A stretch of 50,669 nt of DNA from Candidatus Methanoperedens sp. (GCA_012026795.1 VEPM01000031.1:1-50669), one strand, 5' to 3'; shown: positions 35,676 to 50,661, counted from the stretch's first letter. Notes: a model not told the origin generated them from the sequence alone. Numbers and translations are program-made.

Positions 35676-35713
35676 TGAACAATTAAACAACATTCATATT
35701 AGAGAGGGTATGG

Positions 35714-36133
35714 ATGTTTAAAAAAATTTTCATTTCAATTATTATCTTAGGTTTTTATTATTTAATACCTGTTACTGCCAATTTGGAGCAACATGTAGAT
35801 GAATATTACGACAACTTGCATCAACTAAAAGAATTAAATTTGACCAAACAACAGCTTGAAGGTAATTTGGCAAATTTAAATAAATCCGAATTAAAAACTA
35901 ACGAATTGATAGGCAATGTTGATAATAATATTAACGTATTCAATTCTGAAATAGATACTTTTGAAAAGATATTGCAGGAAAATAAACAAAAGAAGAATGA
36001 AATTAAACGAAATATTCAAGTAATTAATATTTTAAATAATAAAGAATCTTTTTTTCTTATTGGAGCATCTTTAGGCATAATAACAGGTTTATGGATAACA
36101 TGTTTACCTCTCGTACTTCTTTGGAGGAAATAA
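35714..36133 (+). CDS. coiled-coil protein with signal peptide and C-terminal membrane helix
   Basis: Not recognised. It is a 139-residue protein with a signal or anchor helix (residues about 5-20, FISIIILGFYYLIPVTA), an extended coiled coil (about 28-108, rich in Leu/Asn/Lys/Glu heptads), and a C-terminal helix FLIGASLGIITGLWITCLPL with a basic end WRK. The coiled coil would thus be outside the cell, held at both ends. It is followed one base later by a gene of similar architecture, so the two probably pair. It opens the AT-rich tubulin-like neighbourhood. Confidence 0.65.
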   Translation: MFKKIFISIIILGFYYLIPVTANLEQHVDEYYDNLHQLKELNLTKQQLEGNLANLNKSELKTNELIGNVDNNINVFNSEIDTFEKILQENKQKKNEIKRNIQVINILNNKESFFLIGASLGIITGLWITCLPLVLLWRK

Positions 36134-36134
36134 T

Positions 36135-37034
36135 ATGCCGCCCAAAAGAAGGAAATCCAGAAAAAGTAAAAAAAATAATACTATATATTATTCAATTTAT
36201 ATCATATTTGTTTTATTATTTGCGTCTGTTTTAATTTCACAATCAAATGGAGTTGAAAAATACGGTTTTTGTGAAAAAATGGATCAACTGAATGAGAGTA
36301 AAAAAAATTATCCTGAGTTAAGTGAGCAGATACTAAAATTATGTGAAAAGGATTTAAATAAGGATGAGAAAGAACTTGGAAATTTCAGCGTTCAATTTTT
36401 AGAGAGCCTTACATTTTTTTCTGAAAATTGGAAAGAAAATGAGACTATAGCTAAACAATATGCAAAGAAAATTGATAACAGTCATGAAAGTATTAATGAA
36501 ATTGGTATAAATTCTTCCGAAATTATAAATCAAATTGAATCTATTTACAATTCAGAAATAAATAATTTGGGATATGAGTTAGAAATTCAAAATGTGTCTA
36601 TAAGTAATACAACTTACTCAGTGAAGCAACTTAAGCAGAACGAGGAAAATCTAAATACAACTTTAGAAAGGATAAATAATGAACTTGAAAAAAAGAATAA
36701 TCAAGAAAAAAATCTATCTTTAATATACAAACAAAAAATGAATGAATCGAAGAGTTTTGAATTAGATTTGATCTCTTCAACAAATGAGCATCAAAAAATT
36801 AAGAATAGTTTTATTGATAATCTATATCCATTTTTGCTTCTTGGCATTGCGTTTGGTTGTATAACAGGTTTTGTATTAAGCTCTAAATGGAAAAAAGAGA
36901 AAATCTATTGGGATGCTTATTCTTCGTCTGCAAAAGTGAGATCTCCTTTGGTATATGCAGCAGTAATAACTGTGGCACTCTTAGTTATATTGATTATATA
37001 CCTCTTCTTTTCGGGGGTTTTTGATATTTTTTAG
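36135..37034 (+). CDS. membrane protein with long extracellular coiled coil
   Basis: Not recognised. It is a 299-residue protein with a basic N terminus (PPKRRKSRKSKKN), a membrane helix (about 17-35), a long coiled coil (about 45-225), a helix FLLLGIAFGCITGFVLSS, a short loop, and a last helix (AAVITVALLVILIIYLFF). The element LGIAFGCITG echoes IGASLGIITG of the preceding protein, which suggests related membrane helices. Gene spacing (1 base) supports co-translation. The coiled coil might bridge the membrane to the surface layer or form fibres. Confidence 0.65.
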   Translation: MPPKRRKSRKSKKNNTIYYSIYIIFVLLFASVLISQSNGVEKYGFCEKMDQLNESKKNYPELSEQILKLCEKDLNKDEKELGNFSVQFLESLTFFSENWKENETIAKQYAKKIDNSHESINEIGINSSEIINQIESIYNSEINNLGYELEIQNVSISNTTYSVKQLKQNEENLNTTLERINNELEKKNNQEKNLSLIYKQKMNESKSFELDLISSTNEHQKIKNSFIDNLYPFLLLGIAFGCITGFVLSSKWKKEKIYWDAYSSSAKVRSPLVYAAVITVALLVILIIYLFFSGVFDIF

Positions 37035-37137
37035 TCTGGTGAGTTTTTCAAACCAGTTATTTTTATGATGTGATTAATCTTACAACCAAAACAAATTTAT
37101 ACACAAGAATAATTATTAGCTTGAGCGGTGTTGAGTA

Positions 37138-38238
37138 TTGGAAAATGAGACGCAAATTAATAAGAAAATCTTAAGCAATGAAAAAACAGAAGTCATAGAA
37201 GGCATACAACAGCTGGGAAGTAATTTTTTAATTTTTTCCGACAAGAAAAAGGCAATGAATGAATTTCAAGGGCATATAAAAAATTCAGACAGTAGAGTGC
37301 GACAAAGTGTGGCAAATGCATTGTATCTGGCTTTTCCATATATCCCGAATAAGGAAGTGGCTTGGGATGACCTGATTCAGCTAACACGAGACAGAGATAA
37401 GGATATACGGAGGAATGCAGCCTATTCATTAGGTTTAGTCTTTTCCTATGTTCCTGATAAAAAACAAGCTTGGGAACAACTGAGAGGACTAATTAAGGAT
37501 AGTGACAGAGAAGTGTATGCAGGTTCAATAAGTGCGTTAGGTATATCTTTTCCTCATATACCTAATAAAAAACAAGCATGGGAAGACTTAATTAATCTTA
37601 TGGCGGATAATGAGAGGGATGTTCAAGAAATTGCTTCAAGCGCTTTAGGTTTAGCTTTTCCATACGTCATTGAAACGAAACAAGCATTGCAAAGCCTTAT
37701 TAGGTTGACTCCGAACAAATATGACAAATTGCATGTACGTACAATAAATGCTCTAAATTCAGTTTTTCTTTATTTTCCTGACAAAAATAAAATTTGGAAA
37801 GACTTGGTCGAATTGGCTGAGGACTTAGATAACGAGAGGAGGAGACATGCAACAAGTGCATTAGGTTTAGCATTTCCTTATGTATCCAACAGGAAAAAAT
37901 CATACGAGTACTTGATTCATTTGACTAGTAACCCAGATAGCGAACTAAATAAAGGCGCTATAAGTGCATTAGGTTCAGCTTTCCCTTATATACCTAATAA
38001 GAAAGTTGTGTGGGAAGATCTGAAGACTTTGATAAATGAAAAGGGTGGCGATTGGCGGAGTGCAGTAGATGCATTGGGAGTTGCTTTTCCTTATATTCCA
38101 GACATAAAAGCTTGGGATGATCTTGTTGTATTAATGCTTAATCCAGATTTGTCGTTGCGAGTAGGAAATGTGTTGGCTTTGGCATTTTCCTATATGCCAG
38201 ACAAGAAAAAAGGATGGGAAGATATATATATAGATTAA
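37138..38238 (+). CDS. HEAT-repeat protein, 5' part (interrupted by frameshift)
   Basis: A 366-residue reading frame made of about nine 36-37-residue helical repeats with the consensus AWxDLIxLxxDxDxxVRxxA, then ALGLAFPYIPDKK. Its start is TTG 37138 downstream of GGTGTTGAG. Repeats of this HEAT/PBS-lyase type act as protein-binding solenoids and are frequent in Methanosarcina relatives. It stops at 38238, just after a TA tract. The next frame continues the repeat register exactly, so this is the 5' part of a broken or slippage-controlled gene rather than a complete protein. Confidence 0.8.
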   Translation: MENETQINKKILSNEKTEVIEGIQQLGSNFLIFSDKKKAMNEFQGHIKNSDSRVRQSVANALYLAFPYIPNKEVAWDDLIQLTRDRDKDIRRNAAYSLGLVFSYVPDKKQAWEQLRGLIKDSDREVYAGSISALGISFPHIPNKKQAWEDLINLMADNERDVQEIASSALGLAFPYVIETKQALQSLIRLTPNKYDKLHVRTINALNSVFLYFPDKNKIWKDLVELAEDLDNERRRHATSALGLAFPYVSNRKKSYEYLIHLTSNPDSELNKGAISALGSAFPYIPNKKVVWEDLKTLINEKGGDWRSAVDALGVAFPYIPDIKAWDDLVVLMLNPDLSLRVGNVLALAFSYMPDKKKGWEDIYID

Positions 38239-39503
38239 TCCAGGTTGGGAATAGTAGCGAAGTTCGAAAGGGCGCAGCAAAGATAATAGGATCGGTTTTT
38301 TCCTACCTTCCAGATAAGGAATCTGCATATACAGAATTGAAATGGTTGAGTCAGGAAGATGGGGACAAATATGTTCGACAAAGTGCAATAAATGCATTAG
38401 GTTCAGCTTACCAGTACCTCCCTGATAAGAAGGATATATTGGACCATTTAAATAAATTAACTCAGAACTCATTGACTGAAATCCGGGAATCTGCACATTG
38501 TACTTTGGGTAAAATATATGTATTTGAAGCAACGCTGGCAGAAAATGAAGATATTTTTAAGAGACATTTAGAAAATGCATTGGGATTCTTTGAAAAATCA
38601 TCAAATGAATCATATCATGATTTCTACTTAAACCCTGCTAAATTCTGTCTACCATTTTATAATTCTTTTTACTTAATAACATTCAGAAAACAAGAAGCAG
38701 AAGCTGATGTGGAACGAAATCTTAATGAAGCGAAAATAGCTGCAGAGGGTTCAGAAAGTAAAGAAAATCTACTCGAAGCAATAGGGAACCTCAAAAAAGC
38801 AAAAAAGGAGCTGCAAAATGAGATAGTTTTCAATGAAATCAGGAATGACCTTATTAAATATAGGCAATATTGTGAACGGGCTTCAAACATTTTGGATACT
38901 GTGGAAAAAAAATTACCAATACCAGCTAAAATTATTAAGACAGGATTTAAAATTGATGAAAGGATAATTGATGAAATTCAGAGGAATACAAGAATACTTT
39001 GCAAAAAGACACAGAATCCTGACATTCGTGATTTAGGGAAAAAAGTATATCTCATGAGTCGAAATATTTTACAAATAAGAAATTATGAGGGATGTGAAAA
39101 AAGTATAGATAATTTGCAATATTTACTATCTGAAATCTGCAAGAAAATACCTAAAGAAGAAGGAGAAGAAGCATGCAAATTACTTAATAAAATAATTGAA
39201 GAGCCAATTATAGAGGATAAAATTGCTTTAATTAATATGGTTCTAAGTAAAATATCCCAAGTAGGTAAATGGAACGAATCAGAATATAAACCCAAAACAC
39301 TTTCAGATAGGATTAGATATTATCTAGAAAAAATAAATGCTCCAGCAACTATTGCATCTTTTTTTGGTTTTATCATTTTAGAATTTTTAGAGATATTTGA
39401 TATTTATCCTATTGAATACAATAAATATAAACATGTAATCAGCGTTACAGGGGCAATAACAGTTTTTATTATTGTTTTCATATTTACACGAAAGAAAAAA
39501 TGA
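38214..39503 (+). CDS. HEAT-repeat protein, 3' part with coiled coil and two C-terminal membrane helices
   Basis: A frame of 429 codons that carries on the HEAT repeats of the upstream frame for about three more units (IIGSVFSYLPDKE, ALGSAYQYLPDKKD). A helical region (about 165-225, EADVERNLNEAKIAAEG), a further helical domain and two C-terminal membrane helices (ATIASFFGFIILEFLEIF and ITVFIIVFIFTRKKK) follow. The nominal ATG at 38214 has no ribosome binding site and lies inside the upstream frame, so independent translation is doubtful. Restored, the protein would be about 790 residues: a cytoplasmic HEAT solenoid attached to the membrane. Confidence 0.75.
   Translation: MGRYIYRLIQVGNSSEVRKGAAKIIGSVFSYLPDKESAYTELKWLSQEDGDKYVRQSAINALGSAYQYLPDKKDILDHLNKLTQNSLTEIRESAHCTLGKIYVFEATLAENEDIFKRHLENALGFFEKSSNESYHDFYLNPAKFCLPFYNSFYLITFRKQEAEADVERNLNEAKIAAEGSESKENLLEAIGNLKKAKKELQNEIVFNEIRNDLIKYRQYCERASNILDTVEKKLPIPAKIIKTGFKIDERIIDEIQRNTRILCKKTQNPDIRDLGKKVYLMSRNILQIRNYEGCEKSIDNLQYLLSEICKKIPKEEGEEACKLLNKIIEEPIIEDKIALINMVLSKISQVGKWNESEYKPKTLSDRIRYYLEKINAPATIASFFGFIILEFLEIFDIYPIEYNKYKHVISVTGAITVFIIVFIFTRKKK
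38222..38232. repeat. TA dinucleotide tract at the HEAT-gene frameshift
   Basis: ATATATATATA. Removing one AT unit joins WEDIY to RLIQVGN and restores an unbroken HEAT repeat across the two frames. The tract is thus the point of the frameshift, whether from slippage in the population, decay or a consensus error. Confidence 0.75.
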
Positions 39504-39555
39504 AAAGTTGCTTAGGATTTATAATAATATAAAAATAATATATAGTAAGTAAATA

Positions 39556-40602
39556 TTATCTTAGCTGATTAAGTATATTTTTCAAACCTGCAATGCTCGG
39601 TGTTATCTGTCTCTTAATACTTTCAATATCAGCAGCTTCTTTTTCAGCGCCGGGTATGCTGGAAATATTAATTTTTTCTAGTTTATCAGCATTCTGTTTT
39701 AAAGTATTATAAGACCTATCCATCTGATTAATAAGCTCAGGACTTACCTTTTCTCCACCCTGTCCTATTTTATATCCTGCAATGCCGGTTATAACAGCGA
39801 GAGTAATCCCCACAACAATGGCTATGAGCATTGTGCCTTTGTTATCGTCATTCTCAGGCTTGTTATTTCGGAGATATTCAACAATTTTTGCAAATGATTT
39901 TGAAAGATCATAAGCCAATCCCACATGTCCATTCCTGCTTAATCCGGAAATATATTCTTTTTGTTCATTTAAAGCATTAATATGATTGATATTTAGATTG
40001 GAAGTATCCAAATTTGACTGAATCTTATCTAAGTAATCTTTTATATTGGAATTGGTGGATATAAAATTATATGCTCCAGCATCCTGAATTTTGTTTTTCG
40101 CATCAGTGCCGTCATAAACAGTAAAGATGGAAAGTTCAGTGTTCCTTAATCCAGGCCCTTCTCCAGTGTAATCTTTGAAATTTGGCTCTTCAATTTTAAT
40201 CGAAGGTTTTGGAATCCTTCCATAAAGAACTATTTCAAAAAAGGATTCTAAATGATCCCGTGAATTATTCCAGACAGTCCATTTATCAACACGCATTGAC
40301 TTAGTTTCACCATAAATTTTATATTGCCATTCCGGATCTTTTAACTCAGTTCTGACCTCAAGTCCGTAGCTATCCCTTGGATTTGAGGAAGAGGTTTTTA
40401 TGAAAAAAAAATGGGCTTCCAGCTTCTGACCTTCAATGAATGAATGTTTATTTGATGTTAGAAAATCCTCGATTGGATATTTCTTACCTGCGTCATCGAT
40501 ATTGATGACATAGCTCCTTGAGTTATCTATTGATAATATTTCCTGTGCATTGACTGTATTAGTAAGCAAGAGAATAATTAAAACAAATAAAATAATCTTC
40601 AT
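39556..40602 (-). CDS. exported protein with single membrane helix and cytoplasmic coiled coil
   Basis: Not recognised. It has 348 residues: a signal peptide (1-19, ILFVLIILLLTNTVNA), an ectodomain of about 230 residues, a helix GTMLIAIVVGITLAVITGIA (about 258-278), then a helical C terminus with heptads (NQMDRSYNTLKQNADKLEKI). The start overlaps the end of the large tubulin-like gene by four bases, so production is coupled to it. The cytoplasmic coiled coil is a natural candidate for binding the GTPase, or its own coiled coil, at the membrane. Confidence 0.7.
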   Translation of the reverse strand: MKIILFVLIILLLTNTVNAQEILSIDNSRSYVINIDDAGKKYPIEDFLTSNKHSFIEGQKLEAHFFFIKTSSSNPRDSYGLEVRTELKDPEWQYKIYGETKSMRVDKWTVWNNSRDHLESFFEIVLYGRIPKPSIKIEEPNFKDYTGEGPGLRNTELSIFTVYDGTDAKNKIQDAGAYNFISTNSNIKDYLDKIQSNLDTSNLNINHINALNEQKEYISGLSRNGHVGLAYDLSKSFAKIVEYLRNNKPENDDNKGTMLIAIVVGITLAVITGIAGYKIGQGGEKVSPELINQMDRSYNTLKQNADKLEKINISSIPGAEKEAADIESIKRQITPSIAGLKNILNQLR

Positions 40603-43223
40603 TCGTTTTTCTCCATTACAAGTTTTCCATTAAGCATATCAATGTTTGATGCAACATCACCCAGAGGGACAATTATTTGCTGGAGATTCTTTCCAATATC
40701 AAGAAGCTTGGGGGGGATATCATCAAGGTTTCTCCCAATGTCGATTATCAGATGGGTAACCTGTGGTGTTTCCTGATCTTTTGTAATACTTTTTATAAAG
40801 GCATCAACTCTTTGCAGCCTTGATGGTACCTCTTTATCAAGCAAGTTTCCTATTTCTGCGATTTTATCATTTACACTATAAATTCGTCTTGATGTTGTTT
40901 CAAGGAAATTCTTGATTTTGATAATCTTTGCCTTATCTACTTTATCATCTGGATCAACCTGCAATATGAAGTCAGAAAGATAAGTTTTTCCCTCATCAAA
41001 CTTTATGATATAGTTGCTGATCGAATTTTCAAGATTGTTCAAATCATTGCGCGCTTCCTGTATCTGTGACCTTATATTCGCAACCGCTACTGGAGAAAAT
41101 TGTACAGGAGAATCTATTCTTGAGAGCTTTTGTTTTAATAGAGACAATTGATTATCAAGTTCTTCAACTTTTCTTAGCATTTCTGCGACTGTTATCGGGA
41201 CTCTGCTCCATTTTGCTTCTCTGTCCACAAGTTCATAATTTTTCCAGAATTTTATTACGCCTGCCACGGATGCCTTGATATCTCCCCACGGCATCGGGAC
41301 TCCAGTAATATCACTGAATACCTGAAAGTCTCCCAGAAATAGGGAATGATGAAGGAAATACTCCTCATCTGTGGAATTTTCATAGTTTTGTTTCATCTTA
41401 TCAAGGTCTGTTAACCTTGAAGGATATCCCGGTGCAGGAGCCCATGGATGCAGTCCGATCATCAAAGTATAAATATTTACACTGAATTTATCAAGGGGAA
41501 CATTCAGAGGGAATAATTGCGCATGTCTTGCAATGGTATCTCTTAAAAGTTTTTCCGCATTTTCTTTTCCGATTTTTTCTTCATCGATATTAGATTTATC
41601 AGAACTCAAAATAGCGGCTACATACCCTATTTTAGATTCATCATCAATTATACCCCCGGCTCTCTGGTCAATTTTCATGAATTCTTTTTCAAGCAATATG
41701 TTAAGAACATTCGGATGGATTTGTTCTTTATTCATCTTATGCTGGTAATTAAGAAGGGGGGAAGTAGCGATTTGAAGTTCCGTAAAGGGTGTGTGAACAT
41801 GATTATCGTACTCCTCATATCGTCCCAGTTCTTCCATGACTTTCTTGAAACTTGAACTTAGCTCAGGTCTGTCCACATTCAGATGCGTTTCTCTACCCCT
41901 GAAGCTGTTAATTTCCTGGTCGTTTAATCTTATCTGGTACATATGGATATTGGAAGGTGGAGTGACTATCTGCTGGTAAATTTTCTCTTTATATGCCTTA
42001 AGGTTCTTTAATTCGGTTTCAAGATTACCCCTCTTCAGTTCAAGCTCCTTTAGATCATTAAATAAATTATTCTTATAGAATGAAATTTCCTGCATTTGCT
42101 GCTTGGCCATATCAAGTTTTCCTCTTGTGTCCCTTATGGCTTTCTTCCTGGAGAACCAGCCCTGGTTCATTTCCATTTTATTAACTTCGTTCTCAAGCAT
42201 TTCAATATTTACTTTTGAATTTTCCAGATCGTTTTCTAAAGTATTGATCTTATCCCTGGTAGAATTGATATCGGCCTGAAAATTCACCAGCTTTGAATTA
42301 ATGTCCTTGATCTTATCTTCGGTCTCGAACAATCTTAATATTTTATTTGCCGGGAATTCAATAAGATGGTAGCCTATGGTCGAGAATGAACTCGTTAGAG
42401 GTGCAACAGCGGTCATCAGGTCGTTAAGGTCGAACCATTTATCTTCTGTATTCTTCTTTTTCCCGGGCACGAATCCAAGATCAATAAAGAACCTGAGTGC
42501 AATTTCCCTGAGAGAGTCATCATCTTTTGCTCCTGATACTTTTCTCCCGGTCAGTATGAACAGTTTAAAAGGATTAATGTATTTGTCCTTTCTTTCTTTC
42601 TGGGACATAATGAAATGCAGCTCTTTCAAGGTAGCCATTGAATTTCCAATAGTTATTTTCTCTTCATCCATCGAAGGAAGAATTCCAAATCCCAGTATTA
42701 TCGGATCTTTATAATTTGTCTGAAGCCAATTCTTGATATCTATTGATAGATCCGTGATTATGCTTGAACCGGTTCCTCCTCCTAATGAACTTACAATGAT
42801 AACAACAAATCCGTTCTTATCTGTTTTTGAAACAAGATCCTGTGCGGCTTTGTTTATGATCTCCCCGATCCCATCCCTGTGTATTGAATACAGGGCTTTA
42901 CCGAACACCCGCCGCTGTCCTGCACCGATACCACCAACGAGTGCCATATATTTTTCAGGAAACCATGGATTCTTTGCTGTAAAAATATTTCCTGAAGGCA
43001 TTGGAAGAGATTTTTTGTATATAGTGGATTGCAATGTTTTAATATTACGGCAAAGGCCGGAAAGGTCAGAATCATTACTGTCTATAAAAATAAAAGCCTC
43101 ATTTTTTGGAATTCCTCCGTGTGTATCCAGGTAATTGGCCATCATATCAACTATCCTGCAGCCCTGCCCACCAAGACCGATCATGATCCGGTTTACGGTT
43201 TCCTCTGAAAAAACAGTATCCAT
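40599..43223 (-). CDS. large tubulin/FtsZ-superfamily GTPase with coiled-coil insertion
   Basis: An 874-residue member of the tubulin-like superfamily. The N-terminal nucleotide domain shows GLGGQGCRIVD (T1 loop, 16-26), GGIGAGQRRVFGKAL (T3-like, about 97-111) and SSLGGGTGSS (T4 signature, 145-154). After about residue 300 comes a strong coiled coil to about 418, then a long C-terminal region with a second coiled coil (about 690-780). This size and design differ from FtsZ, CetZ and TubZ and best fit the 'tubulin-like' Tubulin_2/FtsZl-type families predicted to remodel membranes. No T7 synergy loop (NxDxxD) is obvious. It lies between a 4-TM protein gene (7-base gap) and a signal-peptide protein gene (4-base overlap). 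Confidence 0.85.
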   Translation of the reverse strand: MDTVFSEETVNRIMIGLGGQGCRIVDMMANYLDTHGGIPKNEAFIFIDSNDSDLSGLCRNIKTLQSTIYKKSLPMPSGNIFTAKNPWFPEKYMALVGGIGAGQRRVFGKALYSIHRDGIGEIINKAAQDLVSKTDKNGFVVIIVSSLGGGTGSSIITDLSIDIKNWLQTNYKDPIILGFGILPSMDEEKITIGNSMATLKELHFIMSQKERKDKYINPFKLFILTGRKVSGAKDDDSLREIALRFFIDLGFVPGKKKNTEDKWFDLNDLMTAVAPLTSSFSTIGYHLIEFPANKILRLFETEDKIKDINSKLVNFQADINSTRDKINTLENDLENSKVNIEMLENEVNKMEMNQGWFSRKKAIRDTRGKLDMAKQQMQEISFYKNNLFNDLKELELKRGNLETELKNLKAYKEKIYQQIVTPPSNIHMYQIRLNDQEINSFRGRETHLNVDRPELSSSFKKVMEELGRYEEYDNHVHTPFTELQIATSPLLNYQHKMNKEQIHPNVLNILLEKEFMKIDQRAGGIIDDESKIGYVAAILSSDKSNIDEEKIGKENAEKLLRDTIARHAQLFPLNVPLDKFSVNIYTLMIGLHPWAPAPGYPSRLTDLDKMKQNYENSTDEEYFLHHSLFLGDFQVFSDITGVPMPWGDIKASVAGVIKFWKNYELVDREAKWSRVPITVAEMLRKVEELDNQLSLLKQKLSRIDSPVQFSPVAVANIRSQIQEARNDLNNLENSISNYIIKFDEGKTYLSDFILQVDPDDKVDKAKIIKIKNFLETTSRRIYSVNDKIAEIGNLLDKEVPSRLQRVDAFIKSITKDQETPQVTHLIIDIGRNLDDIPPKLLDIGKNLQQIIVPLGDVASNIDMLNGKLVMEKNE

Positions 43224-43230
43224 TAATTGC

Positions 43231-43800
43231 TCATCTCCTGGTCATTTCTATCCTATTTTTCTCTGAGATTTTTGCAGCATCAACAAGTGAATCTTTCACA
43301 TCTTTATCCCTGGATTTCATATCCCTCCCGATTTCTTCAGATTCATTCTTTAATCGATCCAGATTGTGTTGCTGTTTAATTAATTCAATTGAAATTGCAT
43401 TCGGAAGGTTTCTTTCAACATAAATCCAGGACAAAATAAGGCATATCGTAGTAAGCGATCCAACTATTATGAAATATATCAGATTACTCTGGATATCGGC
43501 TTCAAATACATATACTTTAAATTCATTGAGCAAATATCCAAGACCACCAAGAATGAACATAAGTACACTGATTATCAATAATATTGTGAATATATTTTTC
43601 AATGAATCAGGGTTTGGCTTTCCCATTGGTTTTCTTTTACTATCCCAGAAATAATACGCACTTAAAATTGAAATAACTATTCCGAGCAATAGAATTCCAG
43701 AAAAGCCAATAAGACCAAGGGTGTTGTAATAATATAATAGACTCGAAAGAATTAATAACAAAATCCCTGCAATTAACCAAAAAATTAATATCTCAATCAT
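43231..43800 (-). CDS. four-TM membrane protein with C-terminal coiled coil
   Basis: Not recognised. It is a 189-residue protein with helices at about 3-20, 29-47, 70-93 and 106-126, then a charged, helical tail (IELIKQQHNLDRLKNESEEI and on to KNRIEMTRR) that should be in the cytoplasm. It starts the operon of the large tubulin-like GTPase, 7 bases upstream of it, and could be its membrane receptor. Upstream (43839-43856) is a perfect palindrome at promoter distance. Confidence 0.68.
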   Translation of the reverse strand: MIEILIFWLIAGILLLILSSLLYYYNTLGLIGFSGILLLGIVISILSAYYFWDSKRKPMGKPNPDSLKNIFTILLIISVLMFILGGLGYLLNEFKVYVFEADIQSNLIYFIIVGSLTTICLILSWIYVERNLPNAISIELIKQQHNLDRLKNESEEIGRDMKSRDKDVKDSLVDAAKISEKNRIEMTRR

Positions 43801-43838
43801 TTTTTAATCACCGAATACCATAATCACTCTGGAATTCA

Positions 43839-43856
43839 ATAATCTTTAAAGATTAT
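43839..43856 (-). promoter_or_regulatory. perfect 18-bp palindrome upstream of the tubulin-like operon
   Basis: ATAATCTTTAAAGATTAT is its own reverse complement and lies 39-56 bases before the minus-strand start at 43800. TTTAAA in the centre could serve as the TATA element, so a dimeric regulator binding here would compete with transcription factors. Confidence 0.45.
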
Positions 43857-43895
43857 AAATATATCGTTCTTTCTTTCAAAAATGTCATGATCATG

Positions 43896-45011
43896 TCATA
43901 ATCCGATCTCACGTAATTTTCTTAATCTATCAATTACTTCTTCTTTATATAGAAGATCTTTAGCAGCATAAATAAGCCCTTCTGCTACTTCTGTTTTGTT
44001 ATCATTCAATTTTTTCTCAGCCAATAATAACAAGAAATAAGGTATATAAATATCAAAAAATTGCCTTTTACTATCTACCTCATTTTTCATCTTTTCCAGT
44101 TCCAGTGTAATATGAATTTTATCAGCAATTCTTGGTTCCTTTGCTTTAATATTTGAAATAAGGGCCTTTGTTCCTTTCTTTATCAAGTCTAAATCTCCGG
44201 ATTCATTATCATTAGAACCTTCATCTCTCATAGTTGAAGCAATGTTTTCAAGAAAATCAGAAATAAATTCATATTCTTTTTCCTTCCTGAGTTCCTCTGA
44301 AGTGCTTCTCAAATATCCAATAATGGCATTTTTTTTCGGATGAGGATCATTTAAATGAAGAACTGATGTTTTGGCGATTTCATCATTTGAAGAAATGCTC
44401 ATTTCTTCTTTTTTTGCTATATTTTCTTTCAGAGAAGTGCCAGGATATTGTATCTTAGAACCCGGATCAGACACTCTTTCCAATGAACCAAGATTTCTAT
44501 TTCCATATTTGAATCCATTTTCATTTCCAAAGCTTCTGTTTTTAATATTACTATATATTATGAAAATCAAAATTATGATTCCACCCAATACAGCAAGTAC
44601 CCAAAAAACAGTATAATTTGTTCCTTCTTCGCGGATTGGCTGCTGTTTTGAGACACTTATTTCAACTGATTTTTTAGCTACTTCCAAACTATTTTCGTAA
44701 ACTATGACCGATATTTCCCTGTTCCCGGAAGAAATACTCGTTCCACCTTCAGATGTTATTTTCTTAGACTTTCGTGGTTCAATTATTACGTTTTTAATAA
44801 CGCTAACATTTTTTGAATCAAGCAGGAATTGAAGTGTTACTTCTGTCTGTGTATAAAGACTGTTATTCAGCTTTGCATAAAAATGTGCATTAATACCATC
44901 AATCAATACAGTTGGTTCAGTGCCAATTTCTTCTACTGAAACATTTCCCTGCGCATGGGTTGGCAATATCAATAACAACCCAAATATTATCCTTAACAAC
45001 TTCGATAACAT
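43896..45011 (-). CDS. exported CARDB-like protein with cytoplasmic helical domain
   Basis: A 371-residue protein from ATG 45011 (MLSKLLRIIFGLLLILP), chosen because it gives a clean signal peptide. A TTG at 45056 would extend the N terminus. One beta-sandwich domain (VSVEEIGTEPTVLIDGINAH, FLLDSKNVSVIKNVIIEPRK) precedes a membrane helix (FWVLAVLGGIIILIFIIY, about 135-155). The C-terminal 210 residues are cytoplasmic: a linker, then an all-helical domain with TPR-like helices (FFDIYIPYFLLLLAEKKLND). The design joins a surface sensor or anchor to a cytoplasmic module next to the tubulin-like operon. Family not recognised. Confidence 0.68.
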   Translation of the reverse strand: MLSKLLRIIFGLLLILPTHAQGNVSVEEIGTEPTVLIDGINAHFYAKLNNSLYTQTEVTLQFLLDSKNVSVIKNVIIEPRKSKKITSEGGTSISSGNREISVIVYENSLEVAKKSVEISVSKQQPIREEGTNYTVFWVLAVLGGIIILIFIIYSNIKNRSFGNENGFKYGNRNLGSLERVSDPGSKIQYPGTSLKENIAKKEEMSISSNDEIAKTSVLHLNDPHPKKNAIIGYLRSTSEELRKEKEYEFISDFLENIASTMRDEGSNDNESGDLDLIKKGTKALISNIKAKEPRIADKIHITLELEKMKNEVDSKRQFFDIYIPYFLLLLAEKKLNDNKTEVAEGLIYAAKDLLYKEEVIDRLRKLREIGL

Positions 45012-45091
45012 AATACACTTATTAAGTCTATTCAAGATATAATAAAGTTTACCCAAAAAATTATATTGTTCTTAAAGCTAAACTGAGGACA

Positions 45092-45982
45092 ATGCAAGAA
45101 ATAATGAATATCCTGAAAAGAACATATGGGTTGTTTTTTCCAGAGGATAAAAAAATAGCATTCAAAAAGCTTCAAAATCTAAATAATAGAATTCTTATCA
45201 TTACTCTTGAAAAAGAAAAACAATTTTTTGAGAACGAAGTGGAAAAAATTCGAAATAATATATATGTGGGCATGCCAATAAAAGAAATTTTTGCCTCTAT
45301 AGATCAATTATCCTCGGAAGTTGAAAGATACATCATGGTCCAGAACGATGATGACTATATACGGATAATTCAACATCTTGTGGTTAAAAATATTAAAACT
45401 GAGAACGAAATAGAAGAGATATGTGATATAAAGGATAGAAGCATTGTCTTTAAATATTTTAAATCCGGTGAACATGAAATATTTGTTCATATATATGAAA
45501 ATATTAATGAAAAAATTAAATCCATAGAACAAATTCTTAAAACTATAGAAAATATAACCTCAAGGAAAGAAGATTTTGGAGAATTAAAAATTATCTGGAA
45601 TAATATTATTGATGATGAAAAAAATAAATTATATCAAGTTAAGATCAGAATGGATGATCCAGAAAAACCCGAAATGGAAAGGATCAATGCATTGGATAAT
45701 GAGATATCAGGCTTAAACAATAGATTTATCTCCCTTGAGAAATATGCTAAACACTACTTGAGTGAAGAATCACTTGATCTTTTTACAAGCGAAATAAAAG
45801 AATATATGCCGTCAAGGGCAGATATTACTTATTATGATATTCTTAATGGAATGGCGGATTGCATTGTTACTGAATTAAAATATTGTATTGGCAGAGATAA
45901 TGAAGGAAAATCAATTGAAATTAAAAAAAGAATGGCAAAGCTGATATATGGCAGGCTCAAGAAAGGAATGTTTGTGATCTGA
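45092..45982 (+). CDS. helical/coiled-coil protein, 296 aa
   Basis: Not recognised. It is a soluble, predominantly helical protein of 296 residues with no signal peptide, rich in Glu/Lys/Ile, and with likely coiled-coil stretches (about 20-60 and 125-215). It starts after CTGAGGAC and ends one base before the 419-residue tubulin-like gene, so it is probably co-translated with it. A partner that organises or regulates the filament would fit the context. Confidence 0.65.
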   Translation: MQEIMNILKRTYGLFFPEDKKIAFKKLQNLNNRILIITLEKEKQFFENEVEKIRNNIYVGMPIKEIFASIDQLSSEVERYIMVQNDDDYIRIIQHLVVKNIKTENEIEEICDIKDRSIVFKYFKSGEHEIFVHIYENINEKIKSIEQILKTIENITSRKEDFGELKIIWNNIIDDEKNKLYQVKIRMDDPEKPEMERINALDNEISGLNNRFISLEKYAKHYLSEESLDLFTSEIKEYMPSRADITYYDILNGMADCIVTELKYCIGRDNEGKSIEIKKRMAKLIYGRLKKGMFVI

Positions 45983-45983
45983 A

Positions 45984-47243
45984 ATGAACATGTTGGTAAT
46001 AGGAATCGGGGAATGTGGAAGGAATATCACCATACAGATGTATTACCAACTCAGTAGTATGCGATACAAATATCTAATTAAAAATTTTGATTTTTTCGTA
46101 ACTGATACTGAGGATAGTTTAAGAATAATCCAAGATATAAAGCGCAAGGGCATCCCCACCGAAGCAATAAATCCTGGAAAATTCGATGAAAAAATTAAAC
46201 CTTTAAATCTTTTTGCGCTTTCTTCAAAATTACTATCAGGAGTTGGAGGAGCATGGATAACTTCTTCAGAGATCGCCAAGAAATTCTTCCAACAAAAAGA
46301 AGGTGAAAATAAACAATATTTGGACTTTCTTAATTTACCAATAAAATATTGTGAATGTTTCAATATCTTTAATAGTGCAGGAGGAGGAACAGGAAGCGGA
46401 GCAGGGCCAGTTTTTCTGGAATATTTGTATAAGAACGCAGAAGACTCATCACGTAAACTCTTCACTGCGACCATAGTACTTCCTTTCAAAAAAGAAGGAG
46501 GGAACTGGAGGGATATGAATTCTGCAATCAATATATCCAGATACAGCAGACTTTGCGATGGAATTATTATTGCAGACAATGAATTTATGCAAGATAAATT
46601 AAAATCTGATATAAAAACTGTCCAGAATAGTATAAATGAACTTTTAGGAAATATCTGGATGTGGATGAATGCTTGCTCCAGTCCACAGTTAATCATAACT
46701 CCTAAACGCTGGGAAGGATCTGACATTAAAAGAAACTTCCGATTTGGAAACAACGGTTCGCTAATTGTGCCTTGCTTCAGGGAAGAACCTGTGGAAAAAT
46801 TAAGAAGAATAAGTTTGAAATGGATAGTCCTTCGGACAATAAGAGAGAATTGCGCGGCGAAATGTTTGCCTGATACATCAAAACGAATTTTAATATTAGC
46901 CTCTCTACCAGATAAAGAAGTTTGTCCTGTATCAGAATCCGATGTGGCTGATTATATCAGCAGCGAATTGTTCAGGGGCAAAGGGTCAGCGATAGATGTT
47001 ATTTTTATTCGTGGGAAGGCTATGCAGAATGTGAGCGTAACGGCATTGCTTATTTCTCCTGAAATTCCAAGGCTTAAGGAACTCAATGAAACTTTCAGGG
47101 CTTATATGGAAAATCCCAGTACATTAGAAAAAGATATGGTTGGTCAGATCCAACAAAATTCCCAAGAAGATCTTATGAGTTATTACAGGATTGAATATGA
47201 GAATTTTCAGAAATACCTGTATGATCTTAAAAGTCTTGGTTAA
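45984..47243 (+). CDS. divergent tubulin/FtsZ-superfamily GTPase, 419 aa
   Basis: A 419-residue protein with the tubulin-superfamily nucleotide pocket: GIGECGRNI (T1, 7-15), SGVGGAWITSSEIA (T3-like, 85-98), NSAGGGTGSGAGP (T4 signature, 130-142) and IIADNEFM, where Asn199 fits the guanine contact. The T7 catalytic loop is not recognisable (EGSDIKR at the expected place), so GTP hydrolysis upon polymerisation may be weak or absent. It lies two bases after the helical protein gene and converges with a second tubulin-like gene, overlapping it by four bases. It is distinct in sequence from canonical FtsZ. Confidence 0.82.
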   Translation: MNMLVIGIGECGRNITIQMYYQLSSMRYKYLIKNFDFFVTDTEDSLRIIQDIKRKGIPTEAINPGKFDEKIKPLNLFALSSKLLSGVGGAWITSSEIAKKFFQQKEGENKQYLDFLNLPIKYCECFNIFNSAGGGTGSGAGPVFLEYLYKNAEDSSRKLFTATIVLPFKKEGGNWRDMNSAINISRYSRLCDGIIIADNEFMQDKLKSDIKTVQNSINELLGNIWMWMNACSSPQLIITPKRWEGSDIKRNFRFGNNGSLIVPCFREEPVEKLRRISLKWIVLRTIRENCAAKCLPDTSKRILILASLPDKEVCPVSESDVADYISSELFRGKGSAIDVIFIRGKAMQNVSVTALLISPEIPRLKELNETFRAYMENPSTLEKDMVGQIQQNSQEDLMSYYRIEYENFQKYLYDLKSLG

Positions 47244-48460
47244 AGTTCCTGATATGTAGCCATCCCTTTTTCTGTTTCGTATTTTCGGGCAGTTTCCTCG
47301 ATTTCTAACAGTCTGTTCAGTTCATCAGGCAGGAATGTGAATAGGACAGTCAAAGATACAAGGTCTCTTTTTGTTCTTGATATTCCAAGTATTCTCCATC
47401 CTTCCCTGCTGTACTGTTCCATATATTTCTTTATATTTGAGGTATCCAGATATTCCTCTTTTTGTAGATAATAATTCGGTACCCTTAGATTCACAAGATT
47501 TTTCCTGGCATTTGCAAGTTCTGATTTTTCAATTTCCATACTCAGGCTTTCGATAGCTTCATCTAGCATTTCCTTAGGTTCTATACTCTTGTATCCTTTT
47601 GGTAATTTTGAAATTATGGGCATATAGTAAAACAGAGTTCTCATCTGCCTGCTGGCTCTTCCTATCACAGCAAATCCTGGATTATTTTTTCCGTTTGATT
47701 GAAAAGATGTAGTAGATACCATATCCATGAAATCTATGTCCTTTAATTCTCTTCCGAAATTTAGCTTTGAAAGGTCAATTTTCTCGATCATTAATCCGGC
47801 TATCAGATCTGTAAGGCAGCGAGCAATATATTTATTGTATTTAGGAAAAAAAGATTCTATGCTTCTTTTATGCGAAAGTTTTTCATTGTCAACAAGGATA
47901 AAACTATTCACATGTTCGGAAAGTTTTTTTATGCATCTCCATGAATTCCAGGAGAGATGCATGCCTTCTTTGCCTTCTCCACTTGCAGGGATTACTGCAA
48001 TAACAATAATGGGGATATTATACAGTTCTTTTATGGCTCTGGCAACAAAAGGGGCAGTACCGCTTCCAGTACCTCCTCCTGTTCCGACACAAAGAAGCGC
48101 AAAAGGGATCCCTGGTTTATTTTCGTTCTTACTTTTAGGAGTGGTCTTTTCTATACGATTTTTGAGAACTTCTTTTAATTTTTCATAATTCGGCTTTATG
48201 ATCTTTTCTGCATTTTCAGGATAATTTCCAAACCCACCTGTTACGTGTTCTCCAAAACCCGTTGTTTTGCCTTCAATAAATCCTTTTTCCTTGGAAATAC
48301 CTAACCAATACTGGTTTCCAATATTCTTAAGCTTCTTTAGGTCATTGACATCTGAGTTTATAACAATAGGTTCCGCTATCTGGAACATATTTTTTTCTTC
48401 AAATATCGCATCCAGTATTGCACTGCCACACTGCCCTATTCCAATAAATGACCTAGCCAT
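47240..48460 (-). CDS. tubulin/FtsZ-superfamily GTPase with tubulin-like loops, 406 aa
   Basis: A 406-residue protein with a complete nucleotide pocket: GIGQCGSAILDA (T1, 7-18), TTGFGEHVTGGFGNYPENAE (T3, 66-85) and VGTGGGTGSGTAPF (T4, 125-138). The T5-like IPASGEGKEG follows, then LVDNEKL (Asn192). The T7-like DIDFMD (241-246) keeps both acidic residues of NxDFxD. The GQCG in T1 is also that of eukaryotic tubulin. It is therefore the most tubulin-like of the three paralogues and is likely to polymerise. The start follows CAGGTGA; a promoter lies 31-40 bases upstream. Confidence 0.85.
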   Translation of the reverse strand: MARSFIGIGQCGSAILDAIFEEKNMFQIAEPIVINSDVNDLKKLKNIGNQYWLGISKEKGFIEGKTTGFGEHVTGGFGNYPENAEKIIKPNYEKLKEVLKNRIEKTTPKSKNENKPGIPFALLCVGTGGGTGSGTAPFVARAIKELYNIPIIVIAVIPASGEGKEGMHLSWNSWRCIKKLSEHVNSFILVDNEKLSHKRSIESFFPKYNKYIARCLTDLIAGLMIEKIDLSKLNFGRELKDIDFMDMVSTTSFQSNGKNNPGFAVIGRASRQMRTLFYYMPIISKLPKGYKSIEPKEMLDEAIESLSMEIEKSELANARKNLVNLRVPNYYLQKEEYLDTSNIKKYMEQYSREGWRILGISRTKRDLVSLTVLFTFLPDELNRLLEIEETARKYETEKGMATYQEL

Positions 48461-48490
48461 AGTTTCACCTGATACTAGGTTTGCCGGGTA

Positions 48491-48500
48491 TCTTTAAATA
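48491..48500 (-). promoter_or_regulatory. TATA-like promoter of the 406-aa tubulin-like gene
   Basis: Read on the minus strand, TATTTAAAGA is preceded by the purine-rich GGAAAG, a BRE-plus-TATA arrangement about 31-40 bases before ATG 48460. The resulting leader would be short and carries the AGGTGA ribosome binding site. Confidence 0.5.
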
Positions 48501-48570
48501 CTTTCCTTGCAAATCAGTTATTCACAATATTATCAATAAAACAGAATAAAAGGATATGGTGGTATTTGCG

Positions 48571-50661
48571 ATGAGTAATATACTTCGAAGGATTTTTTTC
48601 TTTATTAGTTTATTAATAGTCGCCTCAATGCTAATATTTCCTCCCGCTAGTTCGTCCAATGAAATAAATTCATATATAAATTATACATTCATACCGGAAA
48701 GTTCTATGGTAAGTATAGAGGAAGGGAAAAATCTGAGATTTCTTGTCAAACCCTCATTTCCTCGCAATAATTCAGTATTATATGTGTGGTTACTGGATAC
48801 AAAATTAAGTAAATCAGAAAATGATAGTTGGGCTTCAGAATATGAATATAATCCGGATTTTACTGAAGGAGATAGTAATAAAGAGTTAGAATTACGGATA
48901 TATGAAGGCAATAAGGTTATTTCTAGAAAATGGATTATCGATGTGATAAATGTGAATCGACCACCGGTAATTGATCAATATGACCCCAGCGGAATGATAC
49001 TGCAAATAAAAGAAGGAGAATCTTTGCCATTCTCTATACACGCTTCAGACCCTGACCTTGGAGAGATAAATAGACTTACATATTCGTGGACTCTAAATGG
49101 GAATTTTAAATCTAATATGGAATTTTTTGAATTTAAGCCCGCTCCAGAGTCGGAATATTATGAAAAGGGTATGAATATAATCGAGGTGATAGTGAGTGAC
49201 GGAAAAACAGACATTTCCTGGAAATGGTTTATCAAAGTGGAAGGCGTTAATAGACCTCCAAAAATTACAAACATCACCTCTGATAATAACTGGGAAGTGG
49301 AGGAGGGTGAAAATATCACTTTTTCGATAACTGCATCTGATCCTAATGAGAGCGATAATCTTAGTTATACTTGGAGAATAAGTGAAATTAATCAGAAATG
49401 TGGGAATGTCAGTTGTACATATTATCCAAAATATCATGACGAAGGGAAAAAAACTTTATATGTGACCGTAAGCGATGGTAGTTTGAGCGATTCTAAGGAA
49501 CGTATTTTTAAAGTGATAGATAAAAATGGTCCGCCCATTATCAATAATTTAAGTCCTAAAGCTGAACTAAGATTTTTATTCACATGGGATAATGTATATA
49601 AAAATGATAATAATAGCCTTATTAATTATCTTAAGGATAATCTTAGTATTCAATGGGTAGAAAATGCAGAATTCATCAAAAATAATAATACAATCCGCGT
49701 CTTTAAGAAGAAAGAATCAGTAAACATCACCCTCGATAAAGAAAAAGCAAACCTAATAATTGATGATGGAAAAATCTACAATTTGAAAGTAAAAAACGAA
49801 AATAATACTTTTAATATATATGAAAGATATTTAAATTTATCCAAATCCAATGTTATATTCGAAAATTTTTCCGTGAATGCTAGTGATCCTGAAGGGGATA
49901 ACCTCACTTATAAATGGGAATCATTAAGTAAAAATGATTCCAATAGAACTTATTTTAATTTCTATCCAGATTATAATTGTTGTGAGAGTAAAAAAGAAAT
50001 CATAAGTTTAAAAGTGAATGATGGCAATAATTCTATTTTTGAAACTTGGCATATTGTGTTAGAACAAACGACATCCAGTGCAGAAATCTTATTTTTAGAA
50101 TCTATCATATTAATAGCTGCGACAATTTATATAGGGACACCTTATGCCAGAAGCTTGTTATCTATGATATCTGGCTTTTCCTTGGAAACAATTGACAATA
50201 TTTTGAAATCTATATTGTTTTTACCTCTTGCACTTGCAGCAATACTCTGGATTCATTATGGTTTTCCATTCGGAATAATAGCTTTATTTTTTTCATGGAT
50301 TTTCTTCAATGAAGCCATAAGGAAATTAATAGTAATAAAATATTTTCGAAATCATTTTAAATGGGAAGATATTCCAAACAGTAATGAATTTCGAGCTTTT
50401 CTAAAAAAAAAATTGAAATTTGAATGGACAATTGAAGAATTAAAAAAAGAAGATGAAAATACTCTGAGTATATCCAAGGACAACAAATCCATTAAACTCA
50501 AACTTGAAGATGATATGTCAAATGCAAATCTTATACTTAATAATAAAAAAATCGGTGAATTTTATGTGAATATTGATGAATATAACAAACCAAATCTATT
50601 TTGGAAGCCGGATATAATTTATGAACTAATTATCTCTAAAATAATAGTAGCTGTCTATTAA
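48571..50661 (+). CDS. surface protein with cadherin/PKD-like repeats, three membrane helices and a duplicated domain
   Basis: A 696-residue protein from ATG 48571 (GGTGG 8 bases upstream; ATG 48556 adds five residues). Numbered from 48556, a signal helix (about 11-30) precedes four beta-sandwich repeats (VNRPPVID...PFSIHASDPD...LTYSWTLNG; VNRPPKIT...FSITASDPNESDNLSYTWR; FSVNASDPEGDNLTYKWE). Three C-terminal helices (about 509-527, 550-567, 570-588) lead to a cytoplasmic tail (about 595-701). Residues 342-422, between repeats three and four, align with 601-682: F-W-[DE]...LK..L...W...ENT...ANLI...KI. The same domain thus occurs on both predicted sides of the membrane. It is divergent from the 406-aa tubulin-like gene. 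Function unknown. Confidence 0.78.
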   Translation: MSNILRRIFFFISLLIVASMLIFPPASSSNEINSYINYTFIPESSMVSIEEGKNLRFLVKPSFPRNNSVLYVWLLDTKLSKSENDSWASEYEYNPDFTEGDSNKELELRIYEGNKVISRKWIIDVINVNRPPVIDQYDPSGMILQIKEGESLPFSIHASDPDLGEINRLTYSWTLNGNFKSNMEFFEFKPAPESEYYEKGMNIIEVIVSDGKTDISWKWFIKVEGVNRPPKITNITSDNNWEVEEGENITFSITASDPNESDNLSYTWRISEINQKCGNVSCTYYPKYHDEGKKTLYVTVSDGSLSDSKERIFKVIDKNGPPIINNLSPKAELRFLFTWDNVYKNDNNSLINYLKDNLSIQWVENAEFIKNNNTIRVFKKKESVNITLDKEKANLIIDDGKIYNLKVKNENNTFNIYERYLNLSKSNVIFENFSVNASDPEGDNLTYKWESLSKNDSNRTYFNFYPDYNCCESKKEIISLKVNDGNNSIFETWHIVLEQTTSSAEILFLESIILIAATIYIGTPYARSLLSMISGFSLETIDNILKSILFLPLALAAILWIHYGFPFGIIALFFSWIFFNEAIRKLIVIKYFRNHFKWEDIPNSNEFRAFLKKKLKFEWTIEELKKEDENTLSISKDNKSIKLKLEDDMSNANLILNNKKIGEFYVNIDEYNKPNLFWKPDIIYELIISKIIVAVY

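Follow-up and report, generated by a model that had tools for sequence, protein, structure and literature searches.

Three divergent genes of the tubulin superfamily lie together with genes for membrane and surface proteins in Candidatus Methanoperedens sp., and the gene set recurs, partly shuffled, across methane oxidisers and cultured salt-loving archaea. We propose that the products form a cytoplasmic, GTP-driven mixed tubulin-like assembly that is docked on single-pass surface proteins and organises the envelope, and that is not concerned with division or DNA partition. This reading is given a probability of about 0.6. Such an internal "skeleton", attached to the surface of the cell, appears not to have been described before. 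If several different tubulins are indeed tied to surface proteins, archaea have built a mixed tubulin cytoskeleton that is linked to the outside of the cell. A complete block is carried by Halobacterium salinarum R1 (plasmid PHS2), an organism that is culturable and genetically tractable, and the long-standing guess of an FtsZ-like membrane system is therefore directly testable.

The gene cluster and its setting

The DNA analysed, called the window throughout, is a whole contig (C31) of 50,669 bases from a genome of 3.6 Mb in 68 contigs. Genes for prefoldin, an SRP54-type GTPase (FtsY-like), a GHMP kinase and phosphopantothenate synthetase lie to the left of the cluster, and because of them the setting looks chromosomal. 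The GC content is 33% in the cluster (window 35700-50660) and 42% in the rest, that is the left part, of the window, which suggests a different origin or constraint for the cluster. The initial annotation, made from the sequence alone, had placed three tubulin/FtsZ-like GTPases of 874, 419 and 406 residues, each with the GGGTGS signature, in a membrane-protein gene cluster at 39556-48460. The three open reading frames are found at these positions and sizes and the signature is present in all of them, but the left limit was drawn too short, as the conserved set takes in hp139 and tm299 (35714-37034). The topologies that it gave for the neighbours also hold, with four transmembrane (TM) segments in B, a signal, one TM segment and a cytoplasmic helical tail in A and C, and a soluble D (Table 1). 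All topologies of the cluster proteins are predicted from hydropathy only.

Table 1. Genes of the cluster, with positions counted from the first base of the window.
Feature	Position	Strand	Predicted product	Support or remark
hp139	35714..36133	+	signal-like N-terminus, coil, C-terminal TM	TM at 5-23 and 118-136
tm299	36135..37034	+	signal, ectodomain, two C-terminal TMs	
HEAT-repeat genes (two, overlapping)	37138..39503	+	366 and 429 aa	Pfam HEAT_2 1.4e-18, 6.2e-5
A	39556..40602	-	exported protein, TM 258-276, cytoplasmic helical tail; Z1 partner	signal and one TM
Z1	40599..43223	-	FtsZl1/Tubulin_2-type tubulin-like GTPase, 874 aa	PF13809 1.8e-24
B	43231..43800	-	4-TM protein, cytoplasmic helical tail	7 bp upstream of Z1
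C	43896..45056	-	exported single-TM protein with cytoplasmic domain	absent from L067
D	45092..45982	+	soluble helical protein	ends 1 bp before Z2
Z2	45984..47243	+	tubulin-like GTPase, 419 aa	PF00091 4e-16
Z3	47240..48460	-	tubulin-like GTPase, most widely conserved member, 406 aa	PF00091 1.3e-21
PKD701	48556..50661	+	Ig/PKD surface protein with TMs	Pfam Big_9 1.5e-10; between Z3 and contig end

Not all of these genes belong to the conserved set. C, the two HEAT-repeat genes and PKD701 look like local insertions because they are missing from an otherwise syntenic ANME-2 locus (L067), in which no HEAT-repeat genes lie between A and tm299. The HEAT-repeat genes are thus probably an insertion outside the core, and the same is probably true of PKD701, which contains a segment that is dispersed in the genome. 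PKD701 holds two copies of this "WDD" insert (49576-49824 and about 50356-50660). The 88-aa segment (WDDVPGND..LKEFL..KTAKI..DNGKTI) is found in diverse Methanoperedens open reading frames, with 15 copies in the source genome (G000), 12 in G006 and 9 in G025, where it also occurs at locus L063, and it resembles an in-frame mobile insert. A match of the PKD701 C-terminus to a gene beside Z1 in G025 (1.7e-10) had been considered as proof of a Z1-linked system and was dropped, because what is shared is this dispersed segment.

At the left edge, homologues of hp139 adjoin Z3 in two Methanoperedens loci (L039/L040) and lie at the cluster edge in L067. In phmmer searches tm299 matches L039/L040 at 1e-8 to 1e-9 and L067 at 3.7e-65. 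The two proteins correspond to slots 4 and 5 of the haloarchaeal block described below, in both cases by position and topology only.

The three tubulin-like GTPases

Prokaryotic relatives of tubulin are known mainly as FtsZ in division, CetZ in cell shape, TubZ and PhuZ in the movement of DNA, and FtsZl1, for which membrane remodelling is predicted, and they have generally been treated singly. By their Pfam matches Z1, Z2 and Z3 are all members of the tubulin superfamily, and none of them is FtsZ. With the FtsZ equivalog model TIGR00065 (cut-off 295 bits) Z3 scores 63.8 and Z2 26.9, Z1 gives no match and the haloarchaeal members score 22-32, whereas the control FtsZ1 (L187) and FtsZ2 (L193) from the same genome score 437 and 411. 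With PF00091 this genome yields 12 matching loci, of which the cluster accounts for three, and the genomes examined keep a separate FtsZ1 and FtsZ2. In two Methanoperedens genomes (G000 and G006; for example L004-L008, L198, L204 and L211) further FtsZ paralogues have multiplied in addition to FtsZ1 and FtsZ2. They form a clade of their own, and one of them reaches 337 bits, which exceeds the FtsZ cut-off.

Two trees were built, one from 62 and one from 42 sequences. In both, Z2, the haloarchaeal zinc-finger tubulin (ZnTub), a further tubulin (tub456) and the cluster-type Z1 separate into well-supported groups, one for each, and Z3 forms one group with support of 75/61 in the first and 100/99 in the second. 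None of the five falls in the FtsZ1, FtsZ2 or CetZ clades of these trees. Branches are long and the deep order is unsafe; the rows taken as CetZ do not form one clade and the deep branches are weakly resolved. No CetZ profile in the library searched was matched.

Z1 is the member with a named family. It passes the Tubulin_2 cut-off (PF13809, 87.1 bits against 27), a check that had been proposed, as well as that of PF00091 (8.9e-11), and its ANME-1 orthologue scores 75.4 bits with PF13809. Z2 and Z3 do not reach the PF13809 gathering score. The FtsZl families to which the initial annotation had referred are those of Makarova and Koonin 2010 (PMC2875224), and Z1 fits FtsZl1 while Z2 and Z3 lie outside. 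The secondary structure of the AF2 model agrees with the FtsZl1 architecture, which is an FtsZ-like domain followed by a coiled coil and a helical C-terminal part: long helices form the coiled coil at about 292-420, mostly with pLDDT above 80, and the helical remainder is of low confidence. The overall pLDDT of 51.7 makes the model unreliable outside the coiled coil and parts of the N-terminal domain, and it gives no sign either way on the fold. Z1 shares 69% identity with its orthologue in L067 and 31% with that of ANME-1. Its glycine loop reads GGGTGSS, and a profile-profile alignment to FtsZ places a T7-like acidic pair at D265 and D268 in the motif KWFDLNDL, where K262, W263, D265, N267, D268 and L269 do not vary among nine sequences. 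In their work on FtsZl1, Makarova and Koonin were unable to locate the T6-H7 elements (PMC2875224), so the Z1 motif is a specific addition.

The two membrane neighbours of Z1 each recur beside it in other loci. The start of A lies within the Z1 stop codon (a 4-bp overlap), and A is found downstream of Z1 in L067 and in the ANME-1 loci for which this region is present in the data. Homologues of B adjoin Z1 in L067 and in L063. At the latter (L063:6657-12715, in Methanoperedens G025) Z1 and B form an operon together with a membrane P-loop GTPase, Z3 is absent, and the locus represents an FtsZl1-type module that lacks the remaining set. The P-loop GTPase, read from its sequence, is related to one in G045 of the same order, and it is found with Z1 only in G025.

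Z2 matches PF00091 with 60 bits (cut-off 33). Its only clear orthologue, with 57% identity, is in L067, and otherwise a search of 60 related genomes returned only FtsZ-like matches. The orthologue of D adjoins it there (1.8e-60). Z2 groups with ZnTub with support of 99/91, or 87/75 once other long branches are removed, and a relationship as counterparts is possible and moderately supported by these trees. A non-catalytic, beta-tubulin-like T7 loop was considered for Z2 and dropped, because profile alignment puts E244 and D247 at both acidic sites (E/D in place of the D-x-x-D of FtsZ).

Z3 matches PF00091 with 78 bits (cut-off 33) and has the T7 motif DIDFMD in a profile-profile alignment. Its AF2 model, built from 33 sequences, has a pLDDT of 82.5 and a pTM of 0.86. 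The best PDB match is CetZ (3zid, E 1.3e-21), and CetZ and FtsZ structures are matched across both domains with TM-scores of 0.73-0.79 normalised to the CetZ targets. Z3 is thus predicted to have a CetZ/FtsZ-type tubulin fold, and the structure prediction that had been suggested as a check gave a good model for Z3 and a poor one for Z1. The first orthologues to be found were those of two further Methanoperedens genomes and of seven genomes that belong to another family in the order, and relatives are now recognised at 38 loci of named Halobacteriota records, from ANME-2, ANME-2c, Methanophagales (ANME-1), Halorubrum, Halobaculum, Halobiforma and Natrinema as well as Candidatus Methanoperedens.

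The marks of an active GTPase, a GGGTG(S/T)G loop and a T7 acidic pair, are present in the window's Z1, Z2 and Z3, and polymerisation is inferred. By these motifs Z3 of ANME-1, in which neither the GGGTGSG loop nor the first T7 acid survives, is an apparent pseudo-GTPase, although it has kept its position in the cluster. These proteins (L094:9878-10843 and others) have about 300-320 residues and are also missing much of the region that separates the first glycine loop from GGGTGSG.

Surface partners encoded on a second contig

P331 and P684, which are among the best-conserved partners, lie outside the window. They are encoded in the same genome on contig C24, at a distance of about 0.8 kb from its end, which is consistent with a contig break beside PKD701. 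The two contig ends share no k-mers, and for this reason their adjacency is only probable and has not been shown. A 1258-aa multihaem-like protein with many CxxCH motifs (L117:6739-10515) is encoded a few kb from P331 and P684 on C24.

In P331 a signal-like N-terminus precedes a helical ectodomain, which is followed by one TM segment and a tail of about 20 residues, in which a conserved pattern (W..ELDDTRLGEEL and variants) immediately follows the TM segment. P684 has Ig/fn3-like regions, one TM segment and a short tail that resembles that of P331, with ..ETRMGDD or EREVGDI directly after the TM segment, as in RDTSETRMGDDFL and RDMYEREVGDI. Some P684 proteins match the P331 profile, and the two are therefore partly homologous. 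Together with A, they are natural candidates for anchoring a cytoplasmic assembly, an interaction that is inferred.

Gene layouts and co-occurrence

Family profiles built from the Z3-related loci resolved four layouts. In ANME-2 B4-08 (L067), P684 and P331 are divergent from Z3, which is followed by Z2, D, B, Z1, A, tm299 and hp139, and this is the complete set of the window without C, the HEAT-repeat genes and PKD701. In a second Methanoperedens type (L039/L068 and L040/L091) the genes are P684, P331, Z3, hp139, tm299, TM713, tub456 and an exported homologue of slot 8. The haloarchaeal block has 11 genes (slot 0, ZnTub, slot 2, Z3, slot 4, slot 5, TM713, tub456, slot 8, P331 and P684). In ANME-1, P684 and P331 are again divergent from Z3, followed by TM429, TM146, Z1 and A. 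In ANME-2c loci Z3, P331 and P684 are kept, and in most of these loci no second tubulin is close by.

The order Z3-hp139-tm299-TM713-tub456-slot 8 is identical in two Methanoperedens genomes and in haloarchaea, with the reservation on slots 4 and 5 made above. The complete collinear block is present in H. salinarum R1 (OE_RS12075 to OE_RS12025 of PHS2), on a Natrinema plasmid and in Halobaculum roseum, and ZnTub, Z3, TM713, tub456, P331 and P684 are recognised by profiles in each of the three. From Z3 onward most neighbouring genes are only a few bases apart or overlap slightly, as they would in an operon. Of the three tubulins in a block, two are annotated as "cell division protein FtsZ" and the third as "hypothetical protein". 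The T7 acidic motif of tub456, aligned by profile to the D-x-x-D of FtsZ, is VIDIKD. Several copies of the set are on large haloarchaeal plasmids and several on multi-megabase contigs.

Profiles for P331, Z1 and tub456 were searched in 393 Halobacteriota genomes. P331 is present in 40 genomes, and 39 of these have exactly one of Z1 (29) or tub456 (10); Z1 and tub456 never occur together (0 of 393). Conversely, all 10 genomes with tub456 and 29 of the 31 with cluster-type Z1 have P331, and either tubulin is found in only 2 of the 353 genomes that lack it. The exception, G153, has P331 without either tubulin in a genome that is 87% complete, on a contig of 3.5 kb. A Fisher test of P331 against either tubulin gives 3e-50, uncorrected for shared ancestry, and this overstates the independence because the genomes are related and the co-occurrence is clumped, mostly in ANME-1 and haloarchaea. 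The pattern covers the families coded f1, f10, f18, f20, f22 and f23.

P331 adjoins Z3 in 34 of 36 loci. At one of the other two (L165) P331 is at a contig end, and at the other (L147, G081) P331 and P684 have no adjacent tubulin while Z1 is on another contig, so that in this genome linkage is lost and co-occurrence of P331 and Z1 is kept. The combination proposed to define the system, Z3, P331, P684 and either Z1 or tub456 in one genome, is found. The gene set co-occurs strongly in at least four lineages, and conservation of the neighbourhood, which had been named as a check, extends to ANME-2, ANME-1, Methanoperedens and haloarchaea. With the tubulin fold modelled for Z3, this supports the initial suggestion of a system of its own with surface-anchored partners: neither of the two outcomes that were to refute it, a fold unlike tubulin and a lack of co-occurrence in related genomes, was observed.

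Proposed role and alternative explanations

How could these proteins work together? Two or three divergent tubulin-superfamily GTPases may act together at the membrane's cytoplasmic face, where Z1 (or tub456), Z3 and Z2 (or ZnTub) would co-assemble into GTP-dependent filaments or patches, with turnover driven by GTP hydrolysis at subunit contacts. The assembly would attach to P331 and P684 through their short conserved tails and to A through its helical tail. The multi-TM proteins would serve as the base of the assembly, which would position or deform the envelope and its surface proteins. In ANME-1, Z3 without the GGGTG loop may be a non-hydrolysing adaptor, with Z1 as the sole GTPase found in the cluster. 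This proposal rests on the gene families, their linkage and co-occurrence, the modelled Z3 fold, the GTP-binding and T7 motifs and the prediction of P331, P684 and A as single-pass exported proteins with cytoplasmic tails. Co-assembly, polymerisation, GTP-driven turnover, tail docking and the envelope role are inferred, without any experiment and without a modelled contact between the products. Local organisation of the envelope or of surface structures is our choice of purpose, with shape, protrusion, vesicle and cell contact unresolved, since surface attachment leaves the function unspecified. Against docking, the shared tail of P331 and P684 may reflect descent and not a common dock, because the two are partly homologous. 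The ANME-2c loci without a nearby second tubulin, P331 without an adjacent tubulin at L147 and the poor Z1 model also count against the proposal as a whole.

The alternative that deserves most attention, although it is improbable, is an FtsZl1-type membrane-remodelling operon of the kind that Makarova and Koonin predicted, to which Z2 and Z3 are incidental neighbours. Z1 is of the FtsZl1 type and the G025 locus, with its P-loop GTPase and B homologue and no Z3, looks like such an operon; however, no vWA protein or P-loop GTPase was detected next to Z1 in the window, ANME-1 places Z1 with Z3, P331, P684 and A, nearly all Z1 genomes (29 of 31) have P331, and in haloarchaea tub456 takes the place of Z1. 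A lineage-specific accessory to division, in which extra FtsZ-like proteins modulate or replace the Z-ring, is slightly harder still to accept. It would account for the tubulin fold and for the two haloarchaeal members annotated as FtsZ. On the other hand, equivalog scores of 22-64 against a cut-off of 295 are far from the 411-437 of true FtsZ1 and FtsZ2, the cluster tubulins lie outside the FtsZ clades, presence is patchy (40 of 393 genomes), and the absence of a SepF-type partner that the initial annotation reported was confirmed by a Pfam search, which recognised no SepF or other divisome gene nearby. A division role is unlikely, given that canonical FtsZ genes already serve division in the genomes examined and that the set occurs only sporadically.

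A defence or signalling system, with the tubulin-like NTPases as switches and not as a cytoskeleton, would suit the patchy accessory distribution, the low GC content and the degenerate Z3 of ANME-1. PADLOC, however, gave no convincing match, only coiled-coil noise, and Pfam recognised no nuclease, toxin or other effector domain, which leaves this possibility with very little support. Hardest to maintain is partition of a plasmid or other element in the manner of TubZRC, or a virus-derived tubulin such as PhuZ, even though several haloarchaeal copies are on large plasmids, Z1 has a weak PHROG match to PhuZ (E 7e-4) and the cluster differs in GC from the rest of the window (33% and 42%). The only direct-repeat arrays in the window are the HEAT repeats, so that the initial statement that no partition centromere is visible stands: there are no iterons, and no DNA-binding Pfam domain is recognised among the cluster genes. 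Partition is unlikely given the lack of a centromere or recognised DNA adaptor and given that the set consists mostly of exported or membrane proteins. Several copies are on multi-megabase contigs, and the window also has the prefoldin, SRP54-type and phosphopantothenate synthetase genes. A phage or mobile origin was rejected because no match was found in phage records or IMG/VR.

We therefore prefer the envelope-organising mixed assembly. A more general formulation, which we advance only tentatively and would not yet defend against an even wager, is a prokaryotic heteromeric tubulin-superfamily cytoskeleton of two or three co-evolving, non-redundant subunits, one of them able to degenerate to a non-GTPase, with a link across the membrane to single-pass surface proteins that are dedicated to it. 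It would have no part in division or DNA segregation, would be common to anaerobic methanotrophs and cultured haloarchaea, and would include a deep replacement between Z1 and tub456 in a fixed slot.

Comparison with known systems

The literature searched, which did not include subscription papers or preprints, held no account of a multi-tubulin cluster, the haloarchaeal block, its surface partners, an exclusive Z1/tub456 slot or sharing between ANME and haloarchaea, and these are the features that appear to be new. The tubulin superfamily and the named family of Z1 are known, and the closest known kinds are the FtsZl1 operons described in 2010 and CetZ. An unexplained "Halo.Tub" group with a quasi-tandem arrangement has been reported (PMC9871819) and may include some of the cluster's proteins, although no sequences were compared; the main text of that report does not describe membrane partners, an alternative tubulin slot or an occurrence in ANME.

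TubZ and PhuZ are likewise tubulin-fold GTPases in multi-gene units, but the cluster has exported partners in place of a centromere, a DNA adaptor and a phage context. Like the cell-shape tubulins CetZ of Halobacteria (PMC9856176), the cluster proteins are archaeal and distinct from FtsZ, and CetZ provides the nearest solved folds for Z3. Z1, Z2 and Z3 nevertheless lie outside the CetZ rows in our trees, and the set and its partners differ from published cetZ neighbourhoods (PMC9856176). The FtsZl1 operons (PMC2875224) share with the window the N-terminal FtsZ-like domain, coiled coil and helical C-terminal part of Z1 as well as membrane proteins in the neighbourhood. The partners that mark such operons (a vWA protein, P-loop GTPase or protein kinase) have no Pfam match among the cluster genes. 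In contrast to those operons, the window has a Z1 with a recognisable T7-like acidic pair (D265/D268) and links to it two further, different tubulin-like proteins.
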